This document shows, piece after piece, positions 1-63,830 of a DNA stretch of 64,000 nucleotides. The stretch is from Ehretia macrophylla (Eukaryota > Streptophyta > Magnoliopsida > Boraginales > Ehretiaceae). The notes below the pieces were generated by a model that saw nothing but the letters and a program-made list of their open reading frames with translations, did no database searches and was not told the origin of the DNA. Position numbers and translations under genes: made by a program. The stretch's first letter is position 1. The number at the start of each line of letters is the position of its first letter. The stretch is from positions 44,191,818-44,255,817 of the forward strand of contig CM075783.1 of the NCBI GenBank assembly GCA_037974665.1, in the 5' to 3' direction.

Positions 1-3000
1 ACGACGCACAATCCGGGATGAAAAAATAGCGCAAACGAAGAAAAGTGTCCCAAAACTGATGAAAACATTCGATTTTGGACTCCAAAATCTGGCGCAGTCA
101 AACAAGCTTGATGCCCCCGTCGTAGAGCTCTCAGAGGGCTTTCCAATAGTATGCTGTGCGCAGCGTAACTCCTTACTGATCAAAAGTTATAGGCACCGGA
201 GCGACAGAGTCCTGGCCCCATGCCCCACGCCCTCGACGTGCGGGCCCAACCTTTATATGAAGAAAAATTGTCTTGCCCAAGGTGTCGTGGGATTCGGTAA
301 TAGAAATGTGATGGATTAGGTTTTTGTTCTTTTTGCGGTGCACGACGTACAATCCTGGACGGAAAATCGGCACAAAAGTAGAAAAGTGTCCCTAAACTAA
401 TGAAAACATTCAATTTTGTGCTCCGAAAATAGGCGTAGCTGAACAAGCTTGCTGCCCCTGTCGTAGACCTCAGAGAGCTTTCCCACTGTATGCTGTGCGC
501 CACGTAAGCCCTTACGGATCAAAAGTTATGGGCAAAAGAGCGACGGAGACCTGGTCCCAAGCCCCATGCCCTCGGTTTGCGGGCCCAGCCTCTACGTGAA
601 GCGATGTTGTCTTGCCCAAGGTACCATTGGATTCAATAATAGAAATGTGATGGATTAGGTTGTCATCCTTTTCGTGACTCACGACGTACGATCCGGGACA
701 AAAAAATAGTGCAAAAGAAGAATAGTATCCCGAAACTAATGAAAACATTCAATTTTGGGCTCCAAAAATAGGCAAAGCCGAGCAAGCTTACTGCCCCATC
801 GTAGAACTCTCGAAAAGCTTTCTAATGGTATGCTGTGCGCTGCGTAACTCCTTACGGATGAAAAGTTATAGGCACCGGAGCGACAGAGACCTGGTCCCAA
901 GCCCCACGCCCTCAATTTGCAGGCCCAGCCTCTACGGGAAGCGAAGTTTTCTTGCCCTAGGTGCCATGGGATTCAATAATAGAAATGTGATGGATTAGGT
1001 TGTCGTCCTTTACTAGGCTCATGACGTACGATCCGGGAAGGAAAAATAACGCAAAAGAAGAAAAATATCCCAAAAATTGATGAAAACGTTCAATTTTGGG
1101 CTCCGAAAATAGGCACAGCCAATCAGGCTTGCTGCCCCCGTCGTAGACCTCTCAGAGAGCTTTCCAACGGTATGTTGTGTGCCACATAATGCCTTACTGA
1201 TCAAAAGTTATGGGCACCGGAGCGAGAGAGACTTGGTCCCAAGCCCCATGCCCTCGGTTTGCGGGCACAGCCTCTACTGAAGTGAAGTAGTCTTGCCCAA
1301 GGTGCCGTGGGATTCGGTAATAGAGATGTGATGGACTAGGTTGTCGTCCTTTTCCCGGCTCACGACATACGATCCGGGATAGAAAAATAGCACAAAAGAA
1401 GAAAAGTGTCCCTAAACCTATGAAAACATTCAATTTTGGGCTCCGAAAACAGGCGCAGCCAAACAGGCTTGCTGCTCCAGTCGTAGACCACTCGAAAAGT
1501 TTTCCAACGGTATGCTGTGCACTGCGTAACTCTTTACAGATCAAAAGTTATGGGTACCGGAGCGACAGAGATCTGGTCCCAAGCCCTACGCCCTCTGTTT
1601 GCGGGCCTAGTCTCTACTTGAAGTGAAGTTGTCTAGCTCAAGGTGCCGTGAGATTCGATAATAGAAATGTGATGGATTAGGTTGTCATCCTTTTTGCAGC
1701 TCACGACGTACGATCCGGGATAAAAATACAGCTCAAAAGAAGAAAAGTGTCCCGAAACTAATGAAAATATTTGATTTTGGGCTCCGAAAATAGGCGCAGC
1801 TGAGCAGGCTTCCTGCCTCCATCATAGAGCTCTCGCAGAGCTTTCCAACGGTATGCTGTACGCTGCGTAACTCCTTACGGAACAAAAGTTATGGGCACCG
1901 GAGCGACGGAGACCTGGTCCTAAGCTCTCGATTTACGGGCCCAGCTTCTACGCAAAACGAAGTTGCCTTGCTAAGGTGCCATGGGATTCGGTAATAGAAA
2001 TGTGATGGATTAGGTTGTCACCCTTTTCGCGGCTCACGACATACGATCTGGGATGGAAATAAAGCGCAAAAGAAGAAAAGTGTCCTAAAATTGATGAAAA
2101 CGTTCAATTTTGGACTTCGAAAATAGGCACAGCAAAGCATGCTTGGCTGCTCTCATCGTAGAGCTCTCGGAGAGCTTTCCAATGGTATGTTGTGCGCCGC
2201 GTAACAGCTTACGGATCAAAAGTTATGGGCTCCGAAGCGACGGAGACCTGGTCCCAAGCCCCACACCCTAGGTTTGCGGGTCCAGCCTCTATTTGAAACG
2301 AAGCTGTTTTGCCCATGGTGCCGTCGGATTCGGTAACAGAAATGTGATGGATTAGGTAGTCGTCCTTTTCGCGGCGAACAACGTACGATCCGGGATGGAA
2401 AAACAGCTCAAACTAAGAAAAGTATCTTGAAACTTGTGAAAACGTTCGATTTTGGGCTCCAAAAATAGGTGCAGCATAGCAGGCTAGATGCCCTCGTTGT
2501 AGAGCTCTCAGAGATCTTTCTAACGGTATGTTGTGCGTCGCGTAACTCCTTACGGATCAAAAGTTATGGGCGCCGGAGCGACCTAGACCAGGTTCCATGC
2601 CCCACGCCCTTGGTTAGCTAGCCCAGCCTTTACGTGAAGCGAAGTTGTCTTGCCCAAGGTGTCGGGGATTCGATAATAGAAATGTGATGGATTAGGTAAT
2701 CGTCCTTTTCGCGACTCACGACGTAAGATCCGGGACGAAAAAATAGCGCGAAAGAAGAAAAGTATCCTGAAATTGATGAAAACATTCAATTTTGGGCAGC
2801 GAAAATAGGTGTAGCCGAGCAGGCTTGCTACCCCCGTCGTAGACCTCTCGGAGAGATTTTCAACAGTATGTTGTGCGCCGCGTAACTCCTTACTGATCAA
2901 AAGTTTTCGGCACCAAAACGACGGATACCTGGTCACAAGCCCCACGCCATCGGTTTGCGGGCCCAGCCTCTACGTGAAGCGAAGTTGTCTTGTCCAAGGT

Positions 3001-5399
3001 GCTATGGGATTCAATAATAGAAATGTGATGGATTAGGTTGTCTTCCTTTTTGCGGCTCACGACGTACGATCTGGGATGGAAAAACAGCGCAGAAGAAGAA
3101 AAGTATGCCGAAATTGATGAAAACATTCGATTTAGGGCTTCGAAAATAGGCCCAGCCAAGTAGAATTTATGCCCCCGTCATAGAGCTCTTAGCGAGCTTT
3201 CCAACGGTATTCTGTGTGCCACGTAACTCCTTACGGATCAAAAGTTATGGGCACCGGAGCGACGGAGACCTGGTCCCAAGCCGCACGCCCTCAGTTTGCC
3301 AGCTTAGCCACTGCATGAAGTGAAGTTGTCTTGCACAAGGTGCCGTGGGATTCGATAATAGAAATGTGATCGATTGAGTTGTCTTTCTTTTTGCGGCTCA
3401 CGACGTACGATCCGGGACGAAAAAATAGCGCAAACGAAGAAAAGTGTCCCAAAATTGATGAAAACATTCAATTTTGGACTCCAAAAGTCGGCGCAATCGA
3501 GCAGGCTTGTTGCCCCAGTCGTAGAGCTCTCGAAGAGCCTTCCAATGGTATGTTGTGCGCCGCGTTACTCCTTACGGAACAAAAGTTATAGGCACCGGAG
3601 CGACGGAGTCCTGGTCCCAAGACCCTGCCCTTGGTTTGCGGGCCAAGCCTCTACATGAAGCGAAGTTGTCTTGCCCAAGGTGCCGAGGTATTCGATAATA
3701 GAAATGTGATGGATTAGGTTTTTGTTCTTTTCGCGGCTTACGACGTATAATCTGGGATGAAAAATCGGCGCAAAAGTAGAAAAGTGTCCCTAAACTAATG
3801 AAAACGTTCAATTTTGTTCTCCGAAACAGGCGCAGCTGAGCAAGCTTGCTACCCTTGTCGTATACCTCTCAGAGAGCTTTCCAACTATATGCTGTGCACT
3901 GCGTAACTCCTTACGGATCAAAAGTTATGGGCATCGGAGTGACAAAGACCTGGTCCTAAGCCCCACGCCCTCGGTTTGCGGGCCTAGCCTCTACGTGAAG
4001 CGAAGTTGTCTTGCCCATGGTGCCATGGGATTCAATAATAGAAATGTGATGGATTCGGTTTTCGTCCTTTTCGTTGCTCACGACGTACGATCCGGGATAA
4101 AAAATAGCGCAAAAGAAGAAAAGTATCTCAAAACTGATGAAAATGTTTAATTTTGGGCCCTGAAAATAGGCCCAGCCGAGCAGGCTTGCTACCCCCATCG
4201 TAGACCTCTCACAGAGCTTTCCAACGGTATGCTGTGCGTCGCGTAATTTCTTACGAATCAAAAGTTATGGGAACCGGAGCGATGGAGACCTGGTTCTAAG
4301 CCCCAAGCCCTCCGTTTGCGGGCCCAGCCTCTACGTGAAGTGAAGTTGTCTTGCCTAAGGTGCCGTGGGATTCGATAATAGAAATGTGTTGTATTAGGTT
4401 GTCGTCCTTTTCGCGGCTCCCGACGTACAATCCAGGAAGGAAAAACAGCGCAAAAGAAGAAAAGTATCCTTAAACTGATGAAAACATTTGATTTTTGGCT
4501 TCAAAAATAGGTGTAGCCAAGCAAGCTTGCTGCCCCCATCATAGAGCTCTCGGAGAGCTTTCCAACGTTATGCTGTGCGCCGCGTAACTTCTTACGGACC
4601 AAAAGTTATGGGCACCGGAGCGTCGGAGACCTGGTCCCAAGCCCCAACCCTTGGTGTGCGGGCCCAGCATCTACATGAAGTAAAGTTGTCTTTCCCAAGG
4701 TGCACTAAGATTCGATAATAGAAATGTGATGGATTAGGTCGTCGTCCTTTTCGTGGCTCACGACGTACGATCCAGAACGGAAAAACAGCACAAAAGAAGA
4801 AAAGTGCCCCGAAACTGATGAAAACGTTCGATTTTGGGCTTCGAAAATAGGAGTAGAAAAGTGGGCTAGCTGCCTCCGTGGTAGAGCTCTCGAAGAGCTT
4901 TCCAACGGTATGCTGTGCGCCGCGTAACTCCCTACATATAAAAAGTTATGGGCACCGGAGCGACGGAGACATGGTCCCAAGCCTGACGCCTTCAATTTGC
5001 GGGCCCAGCCTCTAAGTGAAGCGAAGTTGTCTTGCCCAAGGTGCTGTGGGATTCGGTACTAGAAACGTGATGGATTAGGTTGTCGTCCTTTTCGTGACTC
5101 ACGACGTACTATCCGGGATGAAAAAATAGCGCAAAAGAAGAAAAGTGTCCCTAAACTAATGAAAACGTTTAATTTTGTACTCCGAAAATAGGCGCAACCG
5201 AGCAGGCTTGCTACCCACGCCATAGACCTCTTAGAGAGCTTCCTAACGGTATGTTGTGCGCCGCGTAACTCCTTACAAATCAAATGTTATGGGCACCGGA
5301 GCGATGGAGACCTGGTCCCAAGCGCCACACCCTCATTTTGCGGGCCCAACCTCTACGTGATGCGAAGTTGTCTAGCCCATGGTGCCATGGGATTTGATA

Positions 5400-8300
5400 A
5401 TAGAAATGTGATGGATTAGGTTGTCGTCCTTTTCCCGGCTCACGACGCCCGATCCAAGATGGAAAAACAGCGCAAAAGAAGAAAAGTATCCCGAAATTGA
5501 TGAAAACGTTTGATTTTGGGCTTCGAAAATAGGCGCAGCCAAGCAGGCTTGCAACCCACATCGTAGAGCGCTCGGAGAGCTTTCCAATGTTATGCGGTGC
5601 ATTGTGTAACTCCTTACGGAGCAAAAGTTATGGGTATCAGAGCATCGGAGACCTGGTCCCAAGCCCTACGCCCTCGGTTTTCAGGCCCAGCCTCTACATG
5701 AAGCGAAGTTGTCTTTCCCAAGGTATTGTGAGGTTCGATAATAGAAATATGATGGATGAGGTTGTCGTCCTTTTCATGGCTCACAACGTACGATCCAGGA
5801 CGGAAAAATAGTACAAAAGAAGAAAAGTGTCCCAAAACTGATGAAAACGTTTGATTTTGAGCTTCGAAAACAGGCGCAACCGAGCAGGCTTGCTGCTCCC
5901 GTCGTAGTGATCTCAAAGAGCTTTCTAACGGTATGTTGTGCGCCGTGTAACTCCTTACGGATCAAAAGTTATGGGCACCGGAGCGACGAAGACATGGTCC
6001 TAAGCCCAACGCCCTCGGGTTGCGGGCCCAGCCTCTAAGTGAAGCGAAGTTGTCTTGCCTAAGGTGCCATGGGATTTGATAATAGAAATGTGATGGATTA
6101 GGTTATCTTCCTTTTCGTGGCTCACGACGTACGAACGGGGACGGAAAAATAGCGCAAAAGAAGAAAAGTATCCTAAAATTTATGAAAACGTTCAATTTCG
6201 GACTCCAAAAATAGGCGCTGCTGAGCAGAATTGCTACCCCATCGTAGAGCTCTCAGAGAGTTTTCCCAACGATATGCTTTGCGCCACGTAACTCCTTGCG
6301 GATCAAAAGTTATGGGCACTAGAGCAACGGAGACTTGGTCCCAAGCCCTACACCCTCGGTTTGCGGGCCCAGCCTCTACGTGAAGCGAATTTGTCTTCCG
6401 CATTGTGCCGTGGGATTCTATAATAGAAATATGATGGATGAGGTTGTCGTCCTTTTCGCGGCTCACGACATACGATTCGGGAAGAAAAACGGCACAAAAT
6501 ATGAAAAGTATTCTAAAACTGATGAAAACATTCGATTTTGGGCTCCGAAAATTGGCGCAGCCGAGCAGGCTTGCTGCTCCCATCGTAGAGCTCTCGGAGA
6601 GCTTTCCAACGGTATGTTATGTGCAGCGTAACTCCTTACGGATCAAAAGTTATAGGCACCAAAGCGAAAGGGATCTAGTCCCAAGGCCCACGCCCTCGGT
6701 TTGCTGGCCCAACCTCTACGTGAAGTGAAGTGGTCTTGCCTAAGGTGTCACGGGATTCGACTAATAGAAATGTGACGGATTAGGTTGTCGTCTTTTTCGC
6801 GGCTCACGACATACGATCCGGGACGGAAAAACAACGCAAAAGAAGAAAAGTATCCCGAAACTGATGAAAATCTCCCATTTTGGGCTCAGAAAAGAGGCGC
6901 AGCCGAGCAGGTTTGACCCCACGTCGTAGAGCTCTCGTAGAGCTTTCCAACGGAATGTTGTGCGCCGCGTAACTCCTTACGGATCAAAAGTTATGGGCAC
7001 CGGAGTGACGGATACTTGATCACAAGCCCCACGCCCTCGGTTTGCGCCCCCAACCTCTACATGAAGCAAAGTTGTCTTGCCCAAGGTGTCGTGGGATTCG
7101 ATAATAGAAATGTTATAGATTAGGTTGTCGTCCTTTTCGCGGCTCACGACGTACAATCCGGGACGAAAAAATAGCGTAAAGGAAGAAAAGTATCCCAAAA
7201 CTGATCAAAACATTCGATTTTGGGCTCCAAAAATATCGCTCGTCGTAGAACTTTCAGAGAGCTTTCCAAGGGTATGTTGTGCGCCACATAACTCCTTACG
7301 GATCAAAAGTTATGGGCACCGAAGCGATAGAGACCAGGTCACAGGCCTCACACCCTCGATTTGCGGGCCTAGCCTCTACGCAAAGTGAAGTTTTCTTGGC
7401 TAAGATGCCATGGGACTCGATAATAGAAATGTGACGGATTAGGTTGTCGTCCTTTTCGCGGCTCATGACGAAAGATCCGGGATGAAAAAACAGCGCAAAA
7501 GAAGAAAAGTGTCCTGAAACTGAAGAAAACATTCGATTTTGGGCAGCAAAAATAGGTGAAGCAGAGCAGGCTTGCAGCCCCCATCATACACCTCTCGGAG
7601 AGCTTTCCAACGGTTTTCTGTGCACCGCATAACTCCTTACAGATCAAAAGTTATGGACACCGGAGCGATAGAGACCTGGTCCCAAGCCCCACGCCCTCGG
7701 TTTGCCGGCCTAGCCACTTCTTGCCCAAGGTGTTGTGGGATTCGATAATAGAAATGTGATGGATTAGGTTGTCGTTCTTTTCGCGGCTCACGACGTACGA
7801 TCTGGGATGAAAAAACAGCCAAAAGAAGATAATTATCCTGAAACTGATGAAAACGTTCCATTTTAGGCTCCAAAATAGGCATAGCCGAGCAGGCTTTCTA
7901 CCCCGTCGTAGAGCTCTCGAAGAGCTTTCCAACGGTATGTTGTGCGCCGTGTAACTCCTTACAGATCAAAAGTTATGGGCACCGGAGCGACGGGGACATG
8001 GTCCCAAGCCCGATTCCCTCAGTTTGTGGGCCCAGCCTCTACGTGAAGCGAAGTTGTTTTGCCCAATGTGCCATGGGATTCAGTAATAGAAATGTGATGG
8101 ATTAGGTTGTCGTCCTTTATGCGACTCACGACGTACGATCCGGGATTAAAAAATAGCGCAAAAGAAGAAAAGTATCATAAAACTGATGAAAACGTTCGAT
8201 TTTGGACTTCGAAAACAGGAGCAGCCAAGCAGGCTTGCTACCCCCTTCGTAGAGCTCTTGGAGAGCCTTCCAACGTTATGCTGTTCGTTGTGTAACTCCT

Positions 8301-11300
8301 TACGGAGCAAAAGTTATAGGCACTCGAGCGTCGGAGACCTGGTCCCAGGCCCTACGCCCTCGGTTTGCGGGCCCAGCCTCTATGTGAAGCGAAGTTGTCT
8401 TTCCCAAGGTATTGTGAGATTCGATAATAGAAATATGATAGATTAGGTTGTCGTCCTTTTCATGGCTCACAACGTACGATTCGGGACGAAAAAACAGCAC
8501 AAAAGAAGAAAAGTGTCCCGAAATTGATGAAAACGTTCGATTTTGAGCTCCGAAAACAAGTGCAACCGAGCAGGCTTGCTGCTTCCGTCGTAGAGCTCTC
8601 AAAGAGCTTTCCAACAGTATGTTGTGCGCCGTGTAACTCCTTACGGATCAAAACTTATGGGCACCGGAGCGACGGAGACATAGTCCCAAGCCCGATGCCC
8701 TCGGGTTGCGGGCTTAGTCTCTAAGTGAAGCGAAGTTGTCTTGCCCAAGGTGCCATGGGATTCGATAATAGAAATGTGATGGATTAGGTTGTCGTCATTT
8801 TCGTGGCTCACAACGTATGATCCGGGGGGAAAAATAGCGCAAAAGACGAAAAGTATCCTGAAATTGATGAAAACGTTCGATTTTGGGCTCCAAAAATAGG
8901 CGCTGCAGAGCAGAATTGCTACCCCCGTCGTAGAGCTCTCAGAGAGTTTTCCAACGGTATGCTGTGCGCCGCGTAAGTCCTTACGGATCAAAAGTTATGG
9001 GCACCGGAGCGACGGAGACCTGGTCCCAAGCCCCACGCCCTCGGTTTGCAGGCCTAGCCTCTACGTGAAGAGAAGTTGTCTTTTGCAAGGTGCCGTGGGA
9101 TTCTATATTAGAAATGTGATGGATTAGGTTGTCGTCCTTTTCGCGGCTCACGACATACGATCCGGGAAGAAAAAACGGTGCAAAATATGAAAAGTATCTT
9201 GAAACTGATGAAAACGTTTGATTTTGGGCTCTGAAAACAGGCGCATCCGAGCAGGCTTGCTGCCCCCGTCGTATAGCTCTCGGAGAGCTTTCCAATGGTA
9301 TGTTGTGCGTCGTGTAACTCCTTACGGATCAATAATTATGGGCACTGAAGCGACGGAGACCTGGTCCCAAGCACCACGCCCTCGGTTTGCGGGCCCAACC
9401 TCTTTGTGAAGTGAAGTTGTCTTGCCCAAGGTGCCGTGGGATTCGATAATATAAATGGGATAGATTAGGTTGTCTCATTTTCACGGTTCCCGACGTACGA
9501 TCCGGGATGAAAAAACAGCGTAAAAGAAGAAAAGTATCCCGAAACTGATGAAAACGTTCGATTTTGGGCTCCGAAAATAGCCGCAGCTGAGCAGGCTTAA
9601 CCTCCCCGTCGTAGAGCTCTCGGAGAGCTTTTCAACGGTATGTTGTGCGCTGTGTAACTCCTTACGGATCAGAAGTTATGGGCACCGAAGCGAAGGAGAC
9701 CTGGTCACAAGCCCCACCTCCTCGATTTACGGGCTCAGCCTCTACGTGAAGCGAAGTTGTCTTGTCCAAGGTGTCGTGGGATTCGATAATAGAAATGTGA
9801 TGGATTAGGTTGTCGTTTTTTTCGCGGCTAACGACGTACGATCCGGGACAGAAAAACAGTTTAAAGGAAGAAAAGTATCCCAAAACTGATAAAAATATTC
9901 AATCTTGGTCTCCGAAAATAGGCGCAGCCTAGCAGGCGTGACACCCTCGTCATAGAGCTCTCGTAGAGCTTTCCAACGGTATGTTGTGCGGCACGTAACT
10001 TCTTACAGATCAAAAGTTATGGGCACCGGAGCGACGGATACCTGGTCACAAACCCCACACCCTCGGTTTGCCGTCCCAGCCTCTACGTGAAGCGAAATTG
10101 TCTTGCCTAAGGTGCCGTGGGATTTGATAATAGAAAGGTGATGGATTAGGTTGTCGTCCTTTTCGCAGCTCACAACATATGACCCGGGATGGAAAAATAG
10201 CGCAAAAGAAGAAAAGTGTCCCGAAACTGATGAAAACGTTCGATTTTGGGCAGCGAAAATAGGTGCAGCAAAGCAGGCTTAAAGCCCCCGTCGTAGACCT
10301 CTCGGAGAGCTTTCCAACGATTTGCTGTGTGCCGCGTAACTCCTTACGAATCAAAAGTTATGGGCACCAGAGCGATAGATACCTGGTCATATGCCCCTCG
10401 CCCTCGGTTTGTGGGCCTATCCTCTACGTGAATCGAAGTTGTCTTGCACTAGGTGCCATGGGATTCGAGAATAGAAATGTGATGGATTAGGTTGACGTAC
10501 TTTTCGCGGCTCACGACGTACGATCCGGGACGGAAAAACAGCGTAAAAGAAGAAAAGTGTCCAGAAACTGATGAAAGCGTTCAATTTTGTGCTCTGAAAA
10601 TAGGCGCAGCCATGCATGCTTGTTGCCCCTGTCGTAGAGATCTTAGAGAGCTTTCCAACGGTATGCTGTGCGCCGCGTAACTCTTTACGGATCAAAAGTT
10701 ATGGGCACCAGAGCGACGGAGACCTGGTCCTAAGCCCCACGTCCTCGGTTTGTGGGCCCAACCTCTATGTGAAGCGATATTGTCCTGCCTAAGGTGCCGT
10801 GGGATTCGATAATAGAAATGTGATGGATTAGGCTGTCATCCTTTTCGCGGCTCACGACGTACGATCTAGATAGAAAAACAGCGCAAAAGAAGAAAAGTTT
10901 CACAGACTTCGAAAACAGGCGCAACCAAGCATGCTGGCTGCCCCCGTCGTAGAGCTCTCGGAGTGCTTTCCAACGGTATGTTGTGCACTGCGTAACTCCT
11001 TACAGATCAAAAGTTATGGGCACCAGAGCGTCGGAGACCTGGTCCCAAGCCCCACGCCCTCGGTTTGTAGGCCCAGCCTCTACGTGAAGCGAAGTTGTCT
11101 TTCCCAAGGTATTGTGAGATTTGATAATAGAAATATGATGATTTAGGTTGTCATCCTTTTCGTGGCTCACAACGTACGATCCGGGACAGAAAATAGTGCA
11201 AAAGAAGAAAAGTGTCCCAAAACTGTTGACAACATTCGATTTTGAGCTCCGAAAATAGGTCCAACCGAGCAGGCTTCCTGCCCCCGTCATAGAGCTCTCA

Positions 11301-15703: not shown

Positions 15704-15717
15704 CCCTATAAAAGGAA

Positions 15718-46085: not shown

Positions 46086-46114
46086 AATATTGAATTTAAG
46101 GACGAAATTCTTTT

Positions 46115-51275: not shown

Positions 51276-51318
51276 CATCTTGGGAAATCTGAACGGGGCA
51301 AAAAAACAAAACGAAAAG

Positions 51319-52501: not shown

Positions 52502-52915
52502 GTCATATTGAGGGCGCAAAGACATTATTTGTCGTCCTTTTTGTTGTTCGCGATGAACGATAGGGGACGAAAAAATAGCGCAAAAAGAAGAAAAGTGGCC
52601 CAAAACTGATGCAAACGTTTGATTTTGGGATTTGAAAAATAGGCACGGCCTAGCAGGCTTTTTGCCCCCGTTGTAGAGCTCTCAAAAAGTTTTCCAACGG
52701 TATGTTGTGCGCCGTATAACTCTTTACAGATCAAAAGTTATGGGCACCGGAGCGACGGAGACCTGGTCACTGGCCCTATACCCTCTGATTGCTGGCCCAG
52801 CCTCTACGCAAAGTGAAGTTGTCTTGCCCAAGATGCCGTGGGACTCGGTAATAGAAATGTGATGGATAAATCATTTTGTCAAGCCTAAACGGGGCAAAAA
52901 AACAAAACGAAAAGA

Positions 52916-53034
52916 GGGGTGCAACACGAGGACTTCTCACGGGGTCACCCATCCTATTACTACTTTCGTCCAAGCACGCTTAAATTCGGAGTTATGATGG
53001 GATCCGGTGAATTACTGTAGGTATGATCGCACCC
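52916..53034 (-). rRNA. 5S rRNA: 5S rRNA copy 4 (full length, degenerate)
   Basis: 119 nt with about eleven substitutions. The gene and 3' flank (52832-53031) are identical over 200 bp to those of copy 13 at 57560-57759. The upstream spacer is L-type (TTTTGGTCTCTGAAAATTGG, then a GACGTAGAGC variant). Confidence 0.88.
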
Positions 53035-53446
53035 ATCAGGATGAAGGCGTAAATCCCTTATTTGTAGTCCTTTTCGCATCTCCTAACGAACGATCGGGGA
53101 TGAAGAAACAGTAAAAATGAAGAAAAGTGGCCCAAAACTGATGCAAACGTTCGATTTTGGTCTCTGAAAATTGGCACAGCCGAGTAGACATGTTGCCCTT
53201 GACGTAGAGCTCTCTGAGAGCTTTCCAACTGAATGATGTGCGCCGTATAACTCTCTACGGATCAAAAGTTATAGGCACCGGAGCGACGGAGACCTGGTCA
53301 CAGGCCCCACGCCTTTGGTCTGCGGGCCCATCCTCTACGTGAAGTGAAGTTGTCTTGCCCAAGATGCCGTGGGACTCAATAATAGAAATGTGACAGATAA
53401 AGCATCTTGGTAAGCCTGAACGGGGAAAAAAAACAAAATGAAAAGG

Positions 53447-53565
53447 GGGGTACAAGACGAGGACTTCCCAAGAGGTTACCTATCATAGTACTACTCTCGC
53501 CCAAGCACGCTTAACTTCAGAGTTCTGATGGAATGCGGTGCATTAGTGCTGGTATGATCGCACCT
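53447..53565 (-). rRNA. 5S rRNA: 5S rRNA copy 5 (full length, degenerate)
   Basis: 119 nt with about eleven differences from the array consensus, including the terminal GTCTTGTACCCC instead of GTGTTGCACCCC. The upstream spacer is M-type (AATGATCGAGGATGAAAAAT). Confidence 0.87.
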
Positions 53566-53977
53566 GTCATGTTGAGGGCGCAATGCCCTTATGTGTCGTC
53601 CTTTTCCCGGCTCACGACGAATGATCGAGGATGAAAAATAGCGCAAAAAGTAGAAAAGTGGCCTGAAACTGATACAAATGTTTGATTTTGGGATCTGAAA
53701 ACAGGCGCAGCCTAGTAGATTTGATGCCCCCGTCGTAGAGTTCTCGGAGAGCTTTCCAACCATATATTGTGCGCCGCATAACTCCTTACGAATCAAAAGT
53801 TATGGGCACTGGTGCGCTGGAGACCTGGTCACTGGCCCCACTTCCTTAGTTTGCGGGGCCAACCTCTACGCGAAGCGAAGTTGTTTTGCCCAAGATGTCG
53901 TGGGACTCGATAATAGAAATGTGATAGATAAAGCATATTGACAAGCCTAAACGTGGCAAAAATGCCAAACGAAAAAG

Positions 53978-54096
53978 GGGGTGCAACACGAGGACTTCCC
54001 AGGGGGTCACCCATCTTATTTCTATTCTCGCCCAAGCACGTTTAACTTCAGAGTTCTGATGGGATCCGGCATATTACTGCTGGTATGATCGTACCC
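53978..54096 (-). rRNA. 5S rRNA: 5S rRNA copy 6 (full length, degenerate)
   Basis: 119 nt with about ten substitutions, including GCAGTAATATGCCGGATCCC near the 5' part. The 5' part of the gene and upstream spacer (54051-54184) are identical over 134 bp to copy 21 (61882-62015). The spacer is N-type (TTTGTCGTAATTTTCGCAGC). Confidence 0.88.
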
Positions 54097-54510
54097 GTCA
54101 TGTTGAGGGTGCAAAACCCTTATTTGTCGTAATTTTCGCAGCTCCCAACAAACGATCAGGGACGAAGAAATAACCCAAAAAGAAGAAAAGTGGCCCGAAA
54201 CTGATGCAAACCTTCAATTTCGGGCTCTGAAAATAGGCGCAGCTAAGCTGGCTTGCTGACCCTGTCGTAGAGCTCTCGGAGAGCTTTCCAACGGTATGCT
54301 GTGTGCTGCATAACTCCTTACAGATCAAAAGTTATGGGCACCGGAGCGACGGAGACCAGGTCACAGGACCCACGCCCTTGATTTGCGGGCGCAGCCTCTA
54401 CGCGAAGTGAAGTTGTCTTGCCCAAGATGCCGTGGGACTTGATAATAGAAATGTGATGGATAAAGCATTTTGGGAAGCCTAAACGGGGCAAAAAAACAAA
54501 ATGAAAAGGG

Positions 54511-54608
54511 GTAGTGCAACACGAGGACTTCCCAGGGGGTCACTTATCCTAGTACTACTCTTGCTCAAGCACGCTTAACTTCAGAGTTCTGATGGTATGA
54601 TGGCACCC
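54511..54608 (-). pseudogene. 5S rRNA: 5S rRNA copy 7 with 21-nt deletion
   Basis: 98 nt. Bases 16-36 of the usual gene (AGCACTAATGCACCGGATCCC) are absent, joining ATCATACC to ATCAGAACTC. The box A, intermediate and box C regions remain. Its sequence is shared with copies 12 and 16, including a GCACTAC 3' end. The upstream spacer is O-type. Confidence 0.9.
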
Positions 54609-55022
54609 GTCATGTTGAGGGCGCGAAGCCCTTATGTGCCATCCTTTTTGCGGTTCCCGACGAACGATCCGGGAAGAAGAAACAATGCAAAAAGAAGAAA
54701 AATGGCCCAAAATTAATGCAAACATTTGATTTTTGGATCAAAAAAATATGCGCAGCCTAGCAGGCTTTCTGCCCCCATCATAGAGCTCTTCGAGAGCTTT
54801 TCAACGGTATGTTGTGCGCCGCATAACTCCTTGCGGATCAAAAGTTATGGGCACCAGAGCGATTTAGACCTGGTCACTGGCCCTATGCCCTTTGTTTGCG
54901 GGCCCAGCCTCTATGCGCAGCGAAGCTGTCTTGCCCAAGATGCCGTGGGACTCGGTAATAGAAATGTTATGGATAAAGCATTTTGGCAAGCCTAAACGGG
55001 GCAAAAAAACTAAACGAAAAGG

Positions 55023-55120
55023 GGGGTGGAACACGAGGACTTCCTAGGGGGTCTCCTATCCTATTACTACTCTCGCCCAAGCATGCTTAACTTCAGAGAT
55101 TTGATGGTATGATCGCACCA
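55023..55120 (-). pseudogene. 5S rRNA: 5S rRNA copy 8 with 21-nt deletion
   Basis: 98 nt with the same 16-36 deletion. It carries its own substitutions (TTCCACCCC 3' end, AAATCTCTGAAG). It is the extra O-type unit in the repeat order, directly after copy 7. Confidence 0.88.
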
Positions 55121-55505
55121 GTCATGTTGAGGGCGCAAAGCCCTTATGTTTCGTCCTTTTCGCGGCTCCCGACGAAAGATCCGGGACGAAGAAACAGTGC
55201 AAAAAGAAGAAAAATGGCACGAAACTAATGAAAACGTTTGATTTTTGGATCAGCAAAATATGTGCAGCCTAGCCGGCTTTCTACCCCCGTTGTAGAGCTC
55301 TCGGAGAGTTTTCCAACGGTATGTTGGGCGCCGTATAATTCCTTACGGATCAAAAGTTATGGGCACCGGAATGGCGGAGACCTGGTCATAGGCCCCACGC
55401 CCTCGGTTTACGGGCCCAGCCTCTACGCGAAGCGAAGTTGTCTTGCCCAAGATGCCGTGGGACTCGATAATAGAAATGTGATAGATAAAGCATTTTGACA
55501 AGCCA

Positions 55506-55534
55506 AAACGGTCCAAAAAAACAAAACAAAAAGA
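55506..55534 (-). terminator. Pol III terminator (example: copy 9)
   Basis: Immediately after the 5S 3' end the minus strand reads three T runs, CTTTTTGTTTTGTTTTTTTG, sufficient for Pol III termination. The motif recurs after nearly every copy, including those with the 21-nt deletion. Confidence 0.8.
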
Positions 55535-55653
55535 GGGGTGGAACATGAGGACTTCCGAGGGAGTCACCCGTCCTAGTACTACTCTCGCCAAAGTACAGTT
55601 AACTTCACAGTTCTGATGGGATCCGGTGCATTAGTGCTGGTATGATCGCACCC
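55535..55653 (-). rRNA. 5S rRNA: 5S rRNA copy 9 (full length, degenerate)
   Basis: 119 nt. The first 43 bases match the array consensus exactly, with about ten changes further on (for example AACTGTACTTTGGCG in the box A region). The upstream spacer is L-type with AAATAAGGG at about -29. Confidence 0.9.
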
Positions 55654-55682
55654 GTCATGTTGAGGGCGCAAAGCCCTTATTT
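55654..55682 (-). promoter_or_regulatory. 5S upstream promoter region (example: copy 9)
   Basis: On the minus strand CAAATAAGGG occupies about -30 to -21 and C is at -1. This fits the TATA-like element near -28 and the -1 C known for plant 5S genes. Between them GGGCTTTGCGCCC can fold into a short hairpin. Comparable sequence, often with ACATAAGGG, precedes nearly every copy in the array. Confidence 0.65.
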
Positions 55683-56065
55683 GTCGTCCATTTCGCAGCT
55701 CTAGACGAACGATCGGTGACGAAGAAAAAGCGAAAATGAAGAAAAGCGGCCCGAAACTAATGCAAACATTCGATTTTGGTCTCTGAAAATAGGCGCAGCA
55801 GAGCCAGCATGTTGCCCTCGACGTAGATCTCTCTGAGTGCTTTCTAACTGTCTAATGTGCGCCGCATAACTCTTTACAAATCAAAAGTTATAGGTACCGG
55901 AGCGACGGAGACCTGGTCACTGGCCCCACGCCTTCAGTCTGCGGGCCCAGCCTCTATGGGAAGCGAAGTTGTCTTGCCCAAGATGCCGTGGGACTCGATA
56001 GTAGAAATGTGATAGATAGAACACCTTTGCAAGTCTGAACGGGGCAAAAAAACAGAACGAAAAAG

Positions 56066-56184
56066 GGGGTGCAACACAAGGACTTCCTAGAGGGTCACCC
56101 ATCCTAATACTACTCTCGCCTAAGCACGCTTAACTTTGGAGTTCTGATGGGATCCGGTGCATTAGTGCTAGTATGATCGCACCA
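56066..56184 (-). rRNA. 5S rRNA: 5S rRNA copy 10 (full length, least altered)
   Basis: 119 nt with about eight differences from the array consensus, the fewest among full-length copies. One of them is the first base (TGGTGCGATC). The upstream spacer is M-type. If any full-length copy here were transcribed, this and copy 9 are the best candidates. Confidence 0.9.
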
Positions 56185-56595
56185 TTCATGTTGAGGACGC
56201 AAAGCCCTTATGTGTTGTCCTTTTCGCAGCTCCCGATGAATGATCGAGGATGAAAAATAGCGCAAAAAGTAGAAAAGTGGCCTGAAACTGATGCAAACGT
56301 TTGATTTTGGGATCTGAAAACAGGCGCAGCCTAGCAGATTTGCTGCCCCTGTCGTAGAGCTTCAGGAGAGCTCTCCAACGATATGCTGTGCGCCGCATAA
56401 CTCCTTACAAATCAAAAGTTATGGGCACCGGAGCGACAGAGACCTGGTCACCGGCCCCACTTCCTTAGTGTACAGGACCAGCCTCTACGCAAAGCGAAGT
56501 TGTTTTGCCCAAGATGCTGTGGAACTCGATAATAGAAATGTGATAGATAAAGCATCTTGGCAAGCCTAACGGGGCAAAAAAACAAAACGAAAAGG

Positions 56596-56714
56596 GGGGT
56601 GTAACACGATGACTTCCCAGGGGGTCACCAACCCTATTTCTATTCTCGCCCAAGCACACTTAACTTTGGAGTTCGGATGGGATCGGGTTCATTACTGCTG
56701 GAATGATCGCATCC
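56596..56714 (-). rRNA. 5S rRNA: 5S rRNA copy 11 (full length, degenerate)
   Basis: 119 nt with about fourteen substitutions spread along the gene (GGATGCGATCATTCCAGCAG start). The upstream spacer is N-type with an ACATGATGG variant just before the gene. Confidence 0.86.
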
Positions 56715-57131
56715 ATCATGTTGAGGGCGCAAAGCCCTTATTTGTCGTCATTTTCATGGCTTCCGACGAACGATCCGAGATGAAGAAACAACGCAAAAAG
56801 AAAAAGAAAAGCAGCCCGAAACTGATGCAAACCTTCAATTTTGGGCTCTAAAAACAGGCGCAGGCGAGCTGGCTTGCTAACCTCGTCGTAGAGCATTCGG
56901 AGAACTTTCTAACGGTATGTTGTGCGCCGCATAACTCCTTACAGATCAAAAGTTATAGGCACGGGAACAACGGAGAACTGGTCACAGGCCCCATGCCCTC
57001 AGTTTGCAGGCCCATCCTCTACGCGAGGCGAAGTTGTCTTGCCCAAGATCTCGTGGCACTCAATAATAGAAATGTGACGGATAAAGCATCTTGGCAAGCT
57101 TGAACGGGGCAGAAAAACAAAACGAAAAGGG

Positions 57132-57229
57132 GTAGTGCAACACGAGGACTTCCCAGGGGGTCACTTATCCTAGTACTACTCTTGCTCAAGCACGCTTAAC
57201 TTCAGAGTTCTGATGGTATGATCGCACCC
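57132..57229 (-). pseudogene. 5S rRNA: 5S rRNA copy 12 with 21-nt deletion
   Basis: 98 nt with the 16-36 deletion. It is identical to copy 16 along the gene and into the terminator flank. The upstream spacer is O-type. Confidence 0.9.
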
Positions 57230-57643
57230 GTCATTTTGAGGGCACAAAGCCCTTATGTATCGTCCTTTTCGCGGCTCCCAACGAACAATCTGGGACGAAG
57301 AAATAGCGCAAAAAGAAGAAAAATAGCCCAAAACTAATGCAAACGTTTGATTTTTGGATCAGTAAAATATGCGTAGCCTAGCAGGCTTTCTGCCCCCGTC
57401 GTAGAGCTCTCGGAGAGTTTTTCAACTGTATGTTGTGCGCCTTATAACTCCTTACAGATCAAAAGTTATGGGCACCGGAGTGACGAAGACCTGGTCACTG
57501 GCCCTACGCCCTCTGTTTGCGGGCCCAGCCTTTACGCAAAGCGAAGTTGTCTTGCCCACGATGCCGTGGGACTCGGTAATAGAAATGTGATGGATAAATC
57601 ATTTTGTCAAGCCTAAACGGGGCAAAAAAACAAAACGAAAAGA

Positions 57644-57762
57644 GGGGTGCAACACGAGGACTTCTCACGGGGTCACCCATCCTATTACTACTTTCGTCCA
57701 AGCACGCTTAAATTCGGAGTTATGATGGGATCCGGTGAATTACTGTAGGTATGATCGCAACT
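57644..57762 (-). rRNA. 5S rRNA: 5S rRNA copy 13 (full length, degenerate)
   Basis: 119 nt. Identical to copy 4 except the first bases (AGTTGCGATC). The L-type upstream spacers of the two copies differ more, so the identical tract ends abruptly at the 5' end of the gene. Confidence 0.88.
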
Positions 57763-58174
57763 GTTATGTTGAGGGCATAAATCCCTTATTTGTCGTCCTT
57801 TTCGCATCTCCTAACGAACGATTGGGGACAAAGAAAAAGCAAAAATGAAGAAAAGTCACCCAAAACTGATGCAAACGTTTGATTTTGGTCTCTGAAAATA
57901 GGCGCAGTAGAGCTGGCATATTTCCCTCGACGTAGAGCTCTCTGAGAGCTTTCCAACTGTCTGTTGTGCGCCACATAACTCTCTACAAATCAAAAGTTAT
58001 GGGCACCGGAGCGATGGAGACCTAGTCACAAGCCCCACGCCTTCGGTCTGTGGGCCCAGCCTCTACGCAAAGCGAAGTTGTTTTGCCCAAGATCCCGTGG
58101 GACTTGATAATAGAAATGTGACGGATAAAGCATCTTGACAAGTATGAACGGGGCAAAAAAACAAAACGAAAAGG

Positions 58175-58294
58175 GGGGTGTAACACGACGACTTCCTAGG
58201 GGGTCACCCATCCTAGTACTACTCTCGCCCAAGAACGCTTAACTTTTATAGGTTTGATGGGATCCGGTGCATTACTACTGGTATGATCGTACCC
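58175..58294 (-). rRNA. 5S rRNA: 5S rRNA copy 14 (full length, degenerate)
   Basis: 120 nt with an altered patch (AAACCTATAAAAGTTAAGCG) where others read AACTCCGAAGTTAAGCG, and a few other changes. The upstream spacer is M-type. Confidence 0.87.
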
Positions 58295-58706
58295 GTCATG
58301 TTGAGGGCGCAAAGCCCTTATTTGTCGCCCTTCTCGCGGCTCCTGACGAATGATCGAGGACGAAAAACAGCGTAAAAAGCAGAAAAGTAGCCCGAAACTG
58401 ATGCAAACGTTTGATTTTGGGATCTGAAAACAAGCGCAGCCTAGTAGATTTGCTGCCCCTGTCGTAGAGTTCTCGGAGAGTTTTCCAACCATATGCTTTG
58501 CGCCGTATAACTCCTTACGGATCAAAAGTTGTGGGCACCGAAGCGACGGAGACCTGGTCACTGGCCCCACTTCCTCAATTTGCGGAGCCAGCCTCTATGC
58601 GAAGCGAAGTTGTCTTGCCTAAGATGCCGTGGAACTCGATAATAGAAATGTGATAGATAAAGCATCTTGGCAAGCCTGAACGCGACAAAAATGCCAAACG
58701 AAAAAG

Positions 58707-58825
58707 GGGGTGCAACACGAGGACTTCCCAGGGGGTCACCCATCCTATTTCTACTCTCGCCCAAGCACATTTAACTTCGGAGTTCTGATGGGATCCGGCA
58801 TATTACTGCTACTATAATCGCACCC
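58707..58825 (-). rRNA. 5S rRNA: 5S rRNA copy 15 (full length, degenerate)
   Basis: 119 nt. The 3' 40 bases match the array consensus, while the 5' part has several changes (GATTATAGTAGCAGTAATAT). The N-type upstream spacer is about 46 bp shorter than normal, missing sequence near 58950. Confidence 0.87.
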
Positions 58826-59192
58826 GTCATGTTGAGGGCGCAAAACCCTTATTTGTCGTAATTTTCCCGGCTCCTGACGAACGATCGGGGATGAAGAAAC
58901 AGCCGAAAAAGAAGAAAAGTCGGCCGAAACTGATGCAAACGTTCAATTTGTAGAGCTCTCAGAGAGCTTTCCAACGGTACACTGTGTGCCGCATAACTCG
59001 TTACGGACAAAAAGTTATAGGCACCGGAGCGACGGAGACTTGGTCACAGGCTCCACGCCCTTGGTTTCAGGCCCATCCTCTACGCGAAGCGAAGTTGTCT
59101 TGCCCAAGATGCCGTGGGACTCGAAAATAAAAATAAGACGGATAAAGCATCTTGGCAAGCCTGAACGGGGCAGAAAAACAAAACGAAAAGGG

Positions 59193-59290
59193 GTAGTGCA
59201 ACACGAGGACTTCCCAGGGGGTCACTTATCCTAGTACTACTCTTGCTCAAGCACGCTTAACTTCAGAGTTCTGATGGTATGATCGCACCC
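59193..59290 (-). pseudogene. 5S rRNA: 5S rRNA copy 16 with 21-nt deletion
   Basis: 98 nt with the 16-36 deletion, identical to copy 12. The upstream spacer is O-type. Confidence 0.9.
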
Positions 59291-59703
59291 GTCTTGTTGA
59301 GGGCGCAAATCATTTATGTGTTGTCCTTTTCTCAGCTCTTGACGAACGATCCGAGATGAAGAAACAGCGCAAAAAGAAGAAAAATGGCCCAAAACTGATG
59401 CAAACGTTTGATTTTAGAATCATAAAAATATGCTCAGCCTAGCAGGCTTTCTACCCCCATCGTAGAGCTCTTGGAGAGCATTTCAACAGTATGCTGTGCG
59501 CCGCATAACTCCTTACAGATCAAAAGTTATGGGAATCGGAGCGACGGAGACCTGGTCACAGGCCTTACGCCCTCTATTTGCAGGCCCAGCCTCTACGCGA
59601 AGCGAAGTTGCTTGCCCAAGATACCGTGGGATTCGATAATATAAATGTGACGGATAAATCATTTTGTCAAGCCTAAACAGGGCAAAAAAACAAAATGAAA
59701 AGA

Positions 59704-59822
59704 GGGGTGCAATACGAGGACTTCCCTGGGGGTCACCCATCCTATTACTACTCTCGCCCAAGCACGCTTAACTTCATAGTTCTGATGGGATCTAGTGAAT
59801 TACTACTGGTATAATCACACCC
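59704..59822 (-). rRNA. 5S rRNA: 5S rRNA copy 17 (full length, degenerate)
   Basis: 119 nt with about twelve substitutions (GGGTGTGATTATACCAGTAG start). The upstream spacer is L-type. Confidence 0.87.
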
Positions 59823-60234
59823 GCCATGTTAAGGGCGCAAATCCCTTATTTGTTGTCCTTTTCGCAGCTCCGGACGAACGATCGGGGATGAAGAAAAAGC
59901 GAAATTGAAGAAAATGGGCCCAAAACTGATGCAAACATTCGATTTTGGTCTCTAAAAATAGGCGCAGTAGAGCCAGCATGTTGCCCTCGATGTAGAGCTC
60001 TCCGAGTGCTTTCCAACTGTCTGCTATGTGCCGCATAACTCTTTGCATATCAAAAGTTATGGGCACCGGAGCGATGGAGACCTGGTCACAGACCCCACGC
60101 CTTCGGTCTGCGGGCCGAGCCTCTACGCGAAGCGAAGTTATTTTGCCCTAGATGCCGTGGGACTCGATAATAGAAATGTGACGGATAAAGCATCTTGGCA
60201 AGTCTAAACGAGGCAAAAAAACAAAACGAAAAGG

Positions 60235-60353
60235 AGGGTGTAACACGAGGACTTCCTAGGGGGTTACCCATCCTAGTACTATTCTCGCCCAAGCATGCTT
60301 AACTTTGGAGTTCTGATGGGATCCTTTGCATTACTACTGGTATGATCGTACTT
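60235..60353 (-). rRNA. 5S rRNA: 5S rRNA copy 18 (full length, degenerate)
   Basis: 119 nt with about a dozen substitutions (AAGTACGATCATACCAGTAG start, AAAGGATCCC). The upstream spacer is M-type. Confidence 0.86.
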
Positions 60354-60764
60354 GTGATGTTGAGGGCGCAAAGCCCTTATTTGTCGTCCTTTTCGCGGCT
60401 CCCGATGAATGATCGAGGATGAAAAATAGCTCAAAAAGCAGAAAAGTGGCCCAAAACTGATGCAAATGTTTGATTTTGGGATCTAAAAATAGGCGCAGCC
60501 TAGTAGATTTGGTGCCCTTGTCGTAGAGCTCTCGGGGAGCTTTCCAATGTATGATGTGCACCGCATAAGTCCTTACAGATCAAAAGTTATGGGGACCGGA
60601 ATGACAGAGACCAGGTCACTGGCCCCACGTCCTCGGTTTGCGGGCCTAGCCTCTTCGCAAAGCGAAGTTGTCTTGCCCAAGATGCCGTGGAACTCAAGAA
60701 TAGAAATGTGATGGATAAAACATCTTGGCAAGGCTGAATATAGCAAAAATACAAAACGAAAAAA

Positions 60765-60883
60765 GGGGTGCAACACGAGGACTTCCCAGGGGGTCACCCA
60801 TCCTATTTGTACTCTTGTCCAAGCACGTTTAACTTCGGAGTTCTGATGGGATCCGGCACATTACTACTGGTATGATCGCACCC
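60765..60883 (-). rRNA. 5S rRNA: 5S rRNA copy 19 (full length, degenerate)
   Basis: 119 nt with about nine substitutions, including AGTACAAATAGG in the box C region. The upstream spacer is N-type. Confidence 0.88.
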
Positions 60884-61296
60884 ATCATGTTGAGGGCGCA
60901 AAACCCTTATTTGTCGTAATTTTCGTAGCTCCCGACGAACGATTGGGGACGAAGAAACAACCCAAAAAAAGGAAAAGCGACCCGAAACTGATGCAAACCT
61001 TCAATTTTGGGCTCTGAAAACAGGCATAGTCGAGCTGGCTTTCTAACCCCATCGTAGGGCTCTCGGAGAGATTTCTAACGGAATACTATGCGCTGCATAA
61101 CTCCTTATGGATCAAAAGTTATGGGCACCGGAGCAACGGAGACCAGGTCACAGGCCCCATGCCCTAGGTTTGTAGGTCCAACCTCTACTCAAAGCGAAGT
61201 TGTCTTGCCCAAGATGCCTTGGGACTCGAGAACAAAAATGTGATGGATAAAGAATCTTGGCAAGCCTGAACGGGGCAGAAAAACAAAACAAAAAGG

Positions 61297-61394
61297 GGGG
61301 TGCAACACGAGGACTTCCCAGGGGGTCACCCATCCTAGTACTACTCTCGCCCAAGCACGCTTAACTTCGGAGTTCTAATGGTATGATCGCACCT
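61297..61394 (-). pseudogene. 5S rRNA: 5S rRNA copy 20 with 21-nt deletion, otherwise near consensus
   Basis: 98 nt with the 16-36 deletion. Apart from the deletion it differs from the array consensus at only about two bases, which makes its box A to 3' end the best preserved of the array. The upstream spacer is O-type. Confidence 0.9.
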
Positions 61395-61808
61395 GTCTTG
61401 TGGAGGGTGCAAAGCCCTTATGTGTCGTCCTTTTCATGGCTCCCGACGAACGATCCGAGATGAAGAAACAGCGCAAAAAGAAGAAAAATGGCCCAAAACT
61501 GATGTAAACGTTTGATTTTCGGATCAAAAAAATATGCACCGCCTAGCACACTTTCTGCCCTCATCGTAGAGCTCTTCGAGAGCTTTCCAATGGTATGTTG
61601 TGCGCTGCATAACTCCTTACGGATCAAAAGTTATGGGCACCGGAGCGACGGAGACCTGGTCATAAGCCCCACGCCCTTAGTTTACGGGCCCAGCCTCTAC
61701 GCGAAGTGAAGTTGTCTTGCCCAAGATGCCGTGGGACTCGATAATAGAAATATGATAGATAAAGCATCTTGGTGAGCCTGAACGCGGTAAAAATACAAAA
61801 CGAAAAAG

Positions 61809-61927
61809 GGGGTGCAACACAAGGACTTCCGGGGGGGTTATCTATCCTATTTCTACTCTCGTCCAAGCACGTTTATTTTTGGAGTTCTGATGGGATCCGG
61901 CATATTACTGCTGGTATGATCGTACCC
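61809..61927 (-). rRNA. 5S rRNA: 5S rRNA copy 21 (full length, most altered)
   Basis: 119 nt with about sixteen substitutions. It shares an identical 134-bp tract with copy 6 over the 5' part and upstream spacer (N-type). It sits where an L-type unit would be expected if the four-unit order had continued. Confidence 0.85.
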
Positions 61928-62342
61928 GTCATGTTGAGGGTGCAAAACCCTTATTTGTCGTAATTTTCGCAGCTCCCAACAAACGATCAGGGACGAAGAA
62001 ATAACCCAAAAAGAATAAAAGCGGCCCAAAACTAATGCAAACCTTCAATTTTGGGCTCTGAAAATAGGCACAGCTAAGTTGGCTTGCTGACCCCATCGTA
62101 GAGTTCTCGAAGAACTTTCCAACGGTATGCTGTGCGCCGCATAACTCCTTACGGATCAAAAGTTATGGACATTGAAGCGACGGAGACCTAGTCACAGGCC
62201 CCACTTCCTCGGTTTGCGGGCCCAGCCTCTACGCGAAGCGAAGTTGTCTTGCCCAAGATGACGTGGGACTCAATAATAGAAATGTGATGGATAAAGTATC
62301 TTGGCAAGCCTGAACAGGGTAGAAAAACAAAACGAAAAGGGA

Positions 62343-62440
62343 GGGATACAACACGAGGACTTCCTAGGGGGTCACCCATCCTAGTACTACTCTCGCCCAA
62401 GCATGCTTAACTTCGTAGTTCTGATGGTATGATCGTACCC
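62343..62440 (-). pseudogene. 5S rRNA: 5S rRNA copy 22 with 21-nt deletion
   Basis: 98 nt with the 16-36 deletion and a few substitutions (GTTGTATCCC 3' end). The upstream spacer is O-type and lacks a short stretch near 62573. Confidence 0.88.
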
Positions 62441-62851
62441 ATCTTGTTGAGGGCGCAAAGCCCTTATGTGTCGTCCTTTTTGCAGCTCCCGACGAACGAT
62501 CCAGGACAAAGAAACAGCGCAAAAAGAAGAAAAATGGCCCAAAATTAATGCAAACATTTGATTTTTGGATCAGAAAGCCTAGCAAGCTTTTTGCCCCCAT
62601 CGTAGAGCTCTCGGAGAGTTTTCCAATAGTAAGCTGTGCGCCACATAACTCCTTACGTATCAAAAGTTATGGGCACCGGAGCGACGGAGACCTTGTCACA
62701 AGCCCTAAGCCCCATGCCCTCGGTTTGCGAGCCCAGCCTCTACACGAAGCGAAGTTGTTTTTCCCAAGATGATGTGGGACTCGATAATAGAAATGTGACA
62801 GATAAAGCATCTTGGCAAGCCTGAACGAGGCAGAAAAACAAAAAGAAAAGC

Positions 62852-62949
62852 GGGGTGCAACACGAGGACTTCTCAGGGGGTCACCCATCCTAGTACTACT
62901 CTCGCCCAAGCACGCTTAACTTTGGAGTTCTAATGGTATGATCGCACCC
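62852..62949 (-). pseudogene. 5S rRNA: 5S rRNA copy 23 with 21-nt deletion
   Basis: 98 nt with the 16-36 deletion and otherwise about three differences from the array consensus. The upstream spacer is O-type, the second O in a row. Confidence 0.9.
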
Positions 62950-63363
62950 ATCTTGTTGAGGGTGCAAAGCCCTTATGTGTCGTCCTTTTCGTGGCTCCCG
63001 ACGAACGATCTAGGACGAAGAAACAGCGCAAAAAGAAGAAAAGTGGCCCGAAACTGATGGAAACGTTTGATTTTAGGATCTGAAAAATATACGCAGCCTA
63101 GAAAGCTTTCTTCCCCCGTCGTAGAGCTCTCGGAGAGCTTTCGAACAGTATGCTGTGCGCCGCATAACACCATACGGATCAAAAGTTATGGGCACCAGAA
63201 TGATGGAGACCTGGTCACAGGCCCCACACCCTCGGTTTGCGGGACTAGCCTCTACGCGAAGTGTAGTTGTCTTGCCCAAAATGCCTTGGGACTCGATACT
63301 AGAAATGTGATGGATTAAGCATCTTGGCAAGCCTGAACGGGGCAAAAAAACAAAACAAAAAAG

Positions 63364-63482
63364 GGGGTGCAACATGAGGACTTCCTAGGGGGTTACCCAT
63401 CCTAGTACTACTCTCGCCCATGCACGCTAAACTTCGGAGTTCTAATGGGATCCGGTGAATTAATGCTAGTATGATCACACCC
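63364..63482 (-). rRNA. 5S rRNA: 5S rRNA copy 24 (full length, degenerate, last unit)
   Basis: 119 nt with about ten substitutions. Its upstream spacer is L-like in part (AAAATGAAGAAAAG, GCATGTTGCC). That spacer stops at GGACTCGATA (63830), where unrelated LTR sequence begins. Confidence 0.87.
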
Positions 63483-63830
63483 GTCATGTTGAGGGTGCAA
63501 AGCCTTTATGTGTCATCCTTTTCACGGCTCCCAACGAACGATCAGAGATGAAGAATCAGCCCAAAATGAAGAAAAGTAGCGTGAAACTGATGCAAACGTT
63601 CGATTTTGGGCTCTGAAAACAGGCACAGCCGAGCAAGCATGTTGCCTTCATCGTAGAGCTCTCGAAGAGCTTTCCAATGGTATGCTGTGCACCGTATAAT
63701 TCTTTACGGATAAAAAATTATGGGCACCAGAGCAACGGAGACCTGGTCACAAGCCCCACACCATAGGTTTGCAGGCCCAGCCTCTATGCGAAGTGAAGTT
63801 TTCTTGCCCAAGATGCCGTAGGACTCGATA

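Follow-up and report, generated by a model that had tools for sequence, protein, structure and literature searches.

A decayed plant 5S rDNA array and an adjoining spacer-only satellite that probably arose from it by a single loss of the gene segment

Where a ribosomal RNA gene array and a satellite share the same spacer, which gave rise to the other, and how? The question is raised by a 64,000-nucleotide stretch of the Ehretia macrophylla genome (contig CM075783.1, positions 44,191,818–44,255,817; hereafter the window), in which an array of 5S ribosomal DNA (5S rDNA) units adjoins a tandem 341-bp satellite that lacks the 5S gene. An original prediction, made from the letters of the window, held that the satellite is the 5S spacer without its gene, formed by one loss and then amplified. 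We find that a single event separated the two repeat types and consider it probable that a relic plant 5S rDNA locus gave birth to the spacer-only satellite by a single loss of the gene segment.

A shared block and a single breakpoint

A search of the window with a satellite profile (nhmmer) returned 110 stretches, comprising 86 of satellite outside the 5S array, 76 of them near full length, and 24 within 5S units, in agreement with the ~84 monomers and 24 gene units first counted. Alignments and the tree were built from the 100 near-full-length units (76 satellite, 24 5S), with the 10 partial satellite stretches excluded. The satellite monomer and the 5S unit (consensus ~532 bp; lengths mostly 530–534 or 511–513 bp, n = 24) have 337 columns in common, collinear and on the same strand, and their consensuses are ~95% identical, bearing out the predicted sharing of blocks in equal order and orientation. 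The consensus alignment is identical at 322 of 341 positions, including 4 forced linker positions, and contains one large gap. Across the 337 shared columns the consensuses differ at 19 positions (100 units), and 12 of these, clear in both groups, serve as diagnostic sites. Averaged over pairs, identity in the shared part is 0.824 for satellite monomers, 0.821 for 5S spacers and 0.787 across the types. Chance similarity between the satellite and the 5S spacer is excluded.

The gap corresponds to a ~194-bp segment confined to the 5S units, as predicted at ~190 bp, which comprises the terminator flank, the 119-nt gene and 27 bp upstream; its first copy lies at 51272–51465 (minus strand), ordered as 3′ terminator flank, gene and 5′ promoter flank. 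The satellite has a TAGG linker in its place. The gap position is identical in all 79 scored satellite junctions, none of which holds the 5S segment. The 4-base linker reads TAGG in 68 of these junctions and is at most one base off in 78, while the 5S-only part of the 5S-unit profile found no match in any of the 86 satellite stretches. In a maximum-likelihood tree of the 100 units, built by a quick method without bootstrap and left unrooted, satellite and 5S units part on a single branch (Shimodaira–Hasegawa-like approximate likelihood ratio test (SH-aLRT) support, 97). One clean breakpoint common to the satellite monomers is the outcome that the original prediction named as support for a single loss. 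Because the same breakpoint recurs in 79/79 scored junctions and the types part on one branch, the second form was made by one event.

Read in the direction of the gene, the 5S-only segment starts at about −27, spans the gene and ends 48 nt beyond it. The 5S consensus has C at −1, GA at −3, GC at −14/−13 and at −16/−15, and AAATAA at −29 to −24. According to excerpts of PMC9043955, Arabidopsis 5S genes have TATATA at −28, GC at −13 and C at −1, and GA at −3 is conserved in Solanum. Set against these positions, the right breakpoint falls within the TATA-like stretch near −28, with an uncertainty of about one base from the alignment. Judged by this layout, the missing ~194 bp is the complete RNA polymerase III (Pol III) unit, and the satellite is a 5S spacer that cleanly lacks the gene together with its start and stop signals.

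Relic genes, recombinants and decay

The 5S array (51272–63833), delimited by Rfam and nhmmer matches, contains 24 units with genes on the minus strand. Of these 24 genes, 22 pass the gathering score of the Rfam 5S_rRNA model (39 to 98 bits; all minus strand), and we take the consensus gene to resemble an ordinary plant 5S gene beyond that match. The best-scoring copy (56066–56184, minus strand; 97.5 bits) is not intact, and no copy is identical to the array consensus (n = 24). The copies diverge from this consensus by 8.6% in the gene and 11.0% in the spacer, with 9.0% and 7.6% for the two gene flanks; since the gene diverges much as its flanks do, selection on it is not visible. A 21-bp deletion at gene positions 17–37 is common to 7/24 units, for example the one at 61249–61760 (minus strand). 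These seven are more alike than the rest (0.877 versus 0.829) and less diverged (gene 5.8% versus 9.2%, permutation P = 0.0011), showing that a gene-damaged variant spread within the array. The intact genes, more conserved than their spacer, that mark a functional plant 5S locus were not found in this array: its 5S genes are relics, or pseudogenes.

The gene-less satellite lies in four blocks on the plus strand, namely block 1 (1–12123; 36 nhmmer stretches), block 2 (16790–18520; 5 stretches from 16822, plus a 32-bp monomer end), block 3 (21166–33916; some internal joins out of register) and block 4 (49683–51271). The last directly abuts the 5S array in register, so that at 51271/51272 gene-less repeats adjoin gene-bearing units. 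The extent first given, 1–63830, needs correction, as non-array DNA separates the arrays at about 12.1–16.8, 18.5–21.2 and 33.9–49.7 kb. At its other end the 5S array stops mid-unit, and 63834–64000 is unrelated DNA up to the end of the window.

Two of the 76 monomers are recombinant, with a satellite-type left part and a 5S-spacer-type right part: one deep in block 1 (7121–7439, plus strand) and one at the array junction (50929–51271, plus strand). Their right ends are nearer to 5S spacers than to satellite, unlike those of the other 74 monomers. Block 3 also contains out-of-register monomer fusions at 26774, 29173–29176 and 31365–31370, where the profile jumps from 157 to 241, from 261 to 42 and from 202 to 23; these three fusions are traces of unequal recombination. 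Higher-order repeats are weak. Each array had been predicted to have its own, and for the satellite this holds, as the 8-monomer periodicity of block 1, though weak, is clear (P = 0.001), but for the 5S array a 4-unit periodicity is suggestive (P = 0.08 for whole units, 0.10 for spacers). A 16-monomer periodicity in block 3 (21–34 kb) is marginal (P = 0.048).

Both arrays are old, with a mean distance to their own consensus of 10.5% for satellite monomers and 11.1% for 5S spacers. Transitions affect CG (17% in satellite, 16% in 5S spacer) and CHG (15% in both) contexts, compared with 6–7% in CHH (6% in satellite) and 1.5–2.4% at A/T positions (1.5% in satellite). This CG- and CHG-focused decay is the pattern expected from plant DNA methylation. 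The AGCTCTCGGAGAGCT palindrome shows no special conservation beyond its base context, either in the satellite (0.091 observed, 0.098 expected) or in the 5S units (0.111 observed, 0.108 expected). A 15-bp interval near the monomer start (profile columns 22–37, ACGACGTACGATCCGG; about 337–355 in block 1 and equivalent positions) is more conserved than base context predicts in the satellite (P = 0.003) and not so in the 5S spacer; it is possibly a putative protein-binding site gained with satellite status, or else due to chance. Once context is corrected for, the profiles of best-conserved sites in the two arrays are weakly correlated (rho = 0.26), which may come from shared mutation bias.

A Ty3-type retroelement with ~3.6-kb terminal repeats and broken reading frames occupies 33917–49682, and has gag, protease, reverse transcriptase, RNase H, integrase and chromodomain-type matches. 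Its long terminal repeats (LTRs) are 93.5% identical (Kimura two-parameter distance 0.069, about 0.034 per lineage). The per-lineage distance of the satellite, 0.114, is about three times as great, so the array formed well before the retroelement inserted, provided that both evolve at similar rates; satellite DNA rich in CG may mutate faster. The monomers flanking the element do not share a phase (profile positions 200 and 119), so this cannot have been a simple insertion. An inverted partial terminal repeat is nested within it at about 42.2–44.4 kb. Between blocks 1 and 2, a truncated relative (12124–16789) is about 77% identical to it over 4 kb and has a gag-like frame without a Pfam match, while the 2.6-kb non-satellite insert at 18521–21165 showed no similarity to the other two inserts. 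Among the best 120 of 7996 relatives of the retroelement fragments, the source was a plant wherever named, with no close species. These relatives, the 5S-type matches of a reading frame and the CG/CHG decay all mark the DNA as that of a plant.

Loss or insertion of the gene segment

We favour loss of the gene segment over insertion, on the basis of weak hints in the sequence. A single rearrangement in one 5S unit would have removed ~194 bp, the whole Pol III transcription unit from within the TATA-like sequence at about −28 across the 119-nt gene to the terminator flank, and left the 4-bp TAGG. Freed from selection on the gene, the resulting 341-bp unit could then have multiplied into tandem arrays through ordinary unequal exchange or some similar process, while staying near enough to the 5S units to recombine with them now and then. 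The remaining 5S units would have lost selection too, and the 21-bp deletion variant would have spread among them. Homogenization of both arrays would then have stopped, with methylation-driven C-to-T decay and retroelement insertions following.

Four features hint at loss: an inverted repeat (CTTG-CCAAGATGC) across the left breakpoint (P = 0.024, uncorrected); the TATA-like AAATAA at the right breakpoint; the absence from the satellite of an internal 170-bp dimer (P = 0.97), which would have suggested an older satellite; and a CpG content that is not depleted in the two consensuses (observed/expected 1.25 and 1.11, versus 0.66 in the 33.9–49.7 kb element). Other results weigh on the opposite side. 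The inverted repeat is one of four flank comparisons and fails correction, with P = 0.088 for the whole segment. No terminal microhomology is clear beyond two bases at the breakpoints, and the TAGG linker is explained by neither flank. The tree gives no polarity because it is unrooted and the two types form mutually exclusive groups, change of the methylation type is seen in both lineages at the 12 diagnostic sites, which in our reading therefore do not polarize it either, and DNA pattern scans of viral and genome contigs for an outgroup 5S spacer gave 0 matches.

Six sequence strings gave 0 matches in the full-text literature. A protein search with the reading frame of the satellite consensus yielded 8 candidates, none at E up to 10. 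The frame crossing the 5S gene and spacer matched 77 proteins at E up to 1 among 83 candidates; these are matches to the 5S gene, since none of the 77 gave a convincing match to the spacer half (best E 1.1). As for the predicted loss and amplification, a single origin stands (79/79 junctions, one branch), but the direction is less settled, with loss favoured and insertion a possibility.

Under insertion, the 341-bp satellite would be the older form: one monomer would have taken up a 5S gene, together with about 75 bp of flanking sequence, in place of TAGG, and the 532-bp composite would have been amplified. Exactly one monomer does lie between successive genes, the satellite is 3.6 times commoner here (86 versus 24) and the tree has no root; there is also a precedent in Phaseolus, where the 170-bp jumper satellite apparently invaded 5S rDNA with one monomer per spacer (excerpts of PMC8724763). 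However, the inverted repeat and the TATA-like box would then both straddle the boundaries by coincidence, the insert would need to have brought along a full set of promoter, gene and terminator, and a target-site duplication is not visible. None of these objections is decisive, and we regard insertion as unlikely while according it a real share of the probability.

The remaining explanations are far weaker candidates. That the gene was lost independently several times, or that the arrays were continuously converting each other, in place of one event, would fit the 5S–satellite recombination seen in 2/76 monomers and the shedding of gene pieces by the 5S units themselves (the 21-bp deletion, 7/24), but one breakpoint and one linker in 79/79 scored junctions, together with the one tree branch, make it very improbable. 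We attach as slight a chance to the 5S units being tandem copies of a Cassandra-type retroelement, with 5S sequence in its terminal repeats. Such elements do carry 5S sequence (as cited in excerpts of PMC11202950), and tandem Cassandra arrays are named in the title of a cited paper, but the upstream elements here are spaced as in ordinary plant 5S genes. Moreover, the Cassandra primer-binding-site motif has 9 matches in the window at up to 2 mismatches, only 2 of them inside the 5S array; both have 2 mismatches and lie on the minus strand, and the motif does not recur across the 24 units. A Cassandra origin, which would place a primer-binding site next to the terminal repeat of every unit, is not supported.

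Satellite birth and known systems

A 5S gene array turning into satellite DNA, a process already known in a few other species, is most likely what this locus shows. Satellite birth is otherwise usually guessed from scattered similarities; here the presumed parents, their gene-less offspring, partly deleted intermediates and recombinants lie together within a single stretch, with one clean breakpoint. Should the direction be confirmed, the locus would show, in a plant, how losing precisely the Pol III unit turned a full-length 5S spacer into a satellite, and the order of steps could be dated from these loci in related species. A bolder version, which we find doubtful, is that removal of the Pol III unit itself triggered satellite birth: the spacer, freed of transcription and of selection on copy quality, would have out-amplified its gene-bearing parent, the 21-bp-deletion units would be a second independent step, and the locus would record successive stages from rRNA gene array to satellite. 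On the practical side, gene-free satellite can give a signal with 5S spacer probes, and 5S signals in fluorescence in situ hybridization can be relic arrays.

The repeat is collinear with a 5S unit and forms its own array without a working 5S gene, as is characteristic of 5S rDNA-derived satellites. That such satellites occur in a few animals and plants, as the original prediction stated, is confirmed by descriptions from fish, frogs and Plantago; the comparisons below draw on excerpts of the sources named. PLsatB, from the B chromosome of Plantago lagopus (Kumke 2016, as cited in PMC6410184 and PMC11202950), is likewise a 5S rDNA-derived plant satellite of similar length (325 bp). In contrast to the satellite here, it takes in parts of the 5S gene in addition to spacer and is specific to the B chromosome. 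The Phaseolus jumper (Ribeiro 2017, as cited in PMC8724763) is also a plant satellite whose monomer is part of a 5S spacer and which forms gene-free arrays elsewhere, but it measures 170 bp and its authors read the direction as opposite, from satellite into 5S rDNA. The centromeric satellite of the fish Hoplias malabaricus and the frog satellite PcP190 are cases of 5S rDNA turned satellite (cited in PMC5437419 and PMC12692304). In PcP190 a 120-bp stretch resembling the 5S transcribed region is retained (PMC11675491) and the Hoplias repeat is compared as a degenerate 5S sequence (PMC5437419), whereas the gene is absent here. Satellites derived from the 35S intergenic spacer (Vigna, tomato and others; PMC8724763) likewise show an rDNA spacer becoming an independent satellite, although their source is 35S spacer subrepeats and not 5S. 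The excerpted literature on Crepis and Donax contained nothing bearing on spacer-only satellites.

The original prediction also called the presence of both forms side by side unusual. For plants this holds in so far as the full-text literature searched, mostly without subscription papers, contained no report in which a spacer-only 5S satellite lies beside its gene-bearing parent, but the arrangement has already been described in the insect Tribolium freemani, which is the closest case found. According to excerpts of PMC11202950, this species has spacer-only tandem arrays inside 5S gene clusters, truncated 5S genes with 30-bp deletions, and retrotransposons. The excerpts describe neither a clean removal of the entire Pol III unit nor recombinant boundary monomers, and the insect, unlike the locus here, includes intact functional 5S genes. 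Both loci have gene-less spacer repeats adjoining gene-bearing units, together with truncated 5S genes and retrotransposons.

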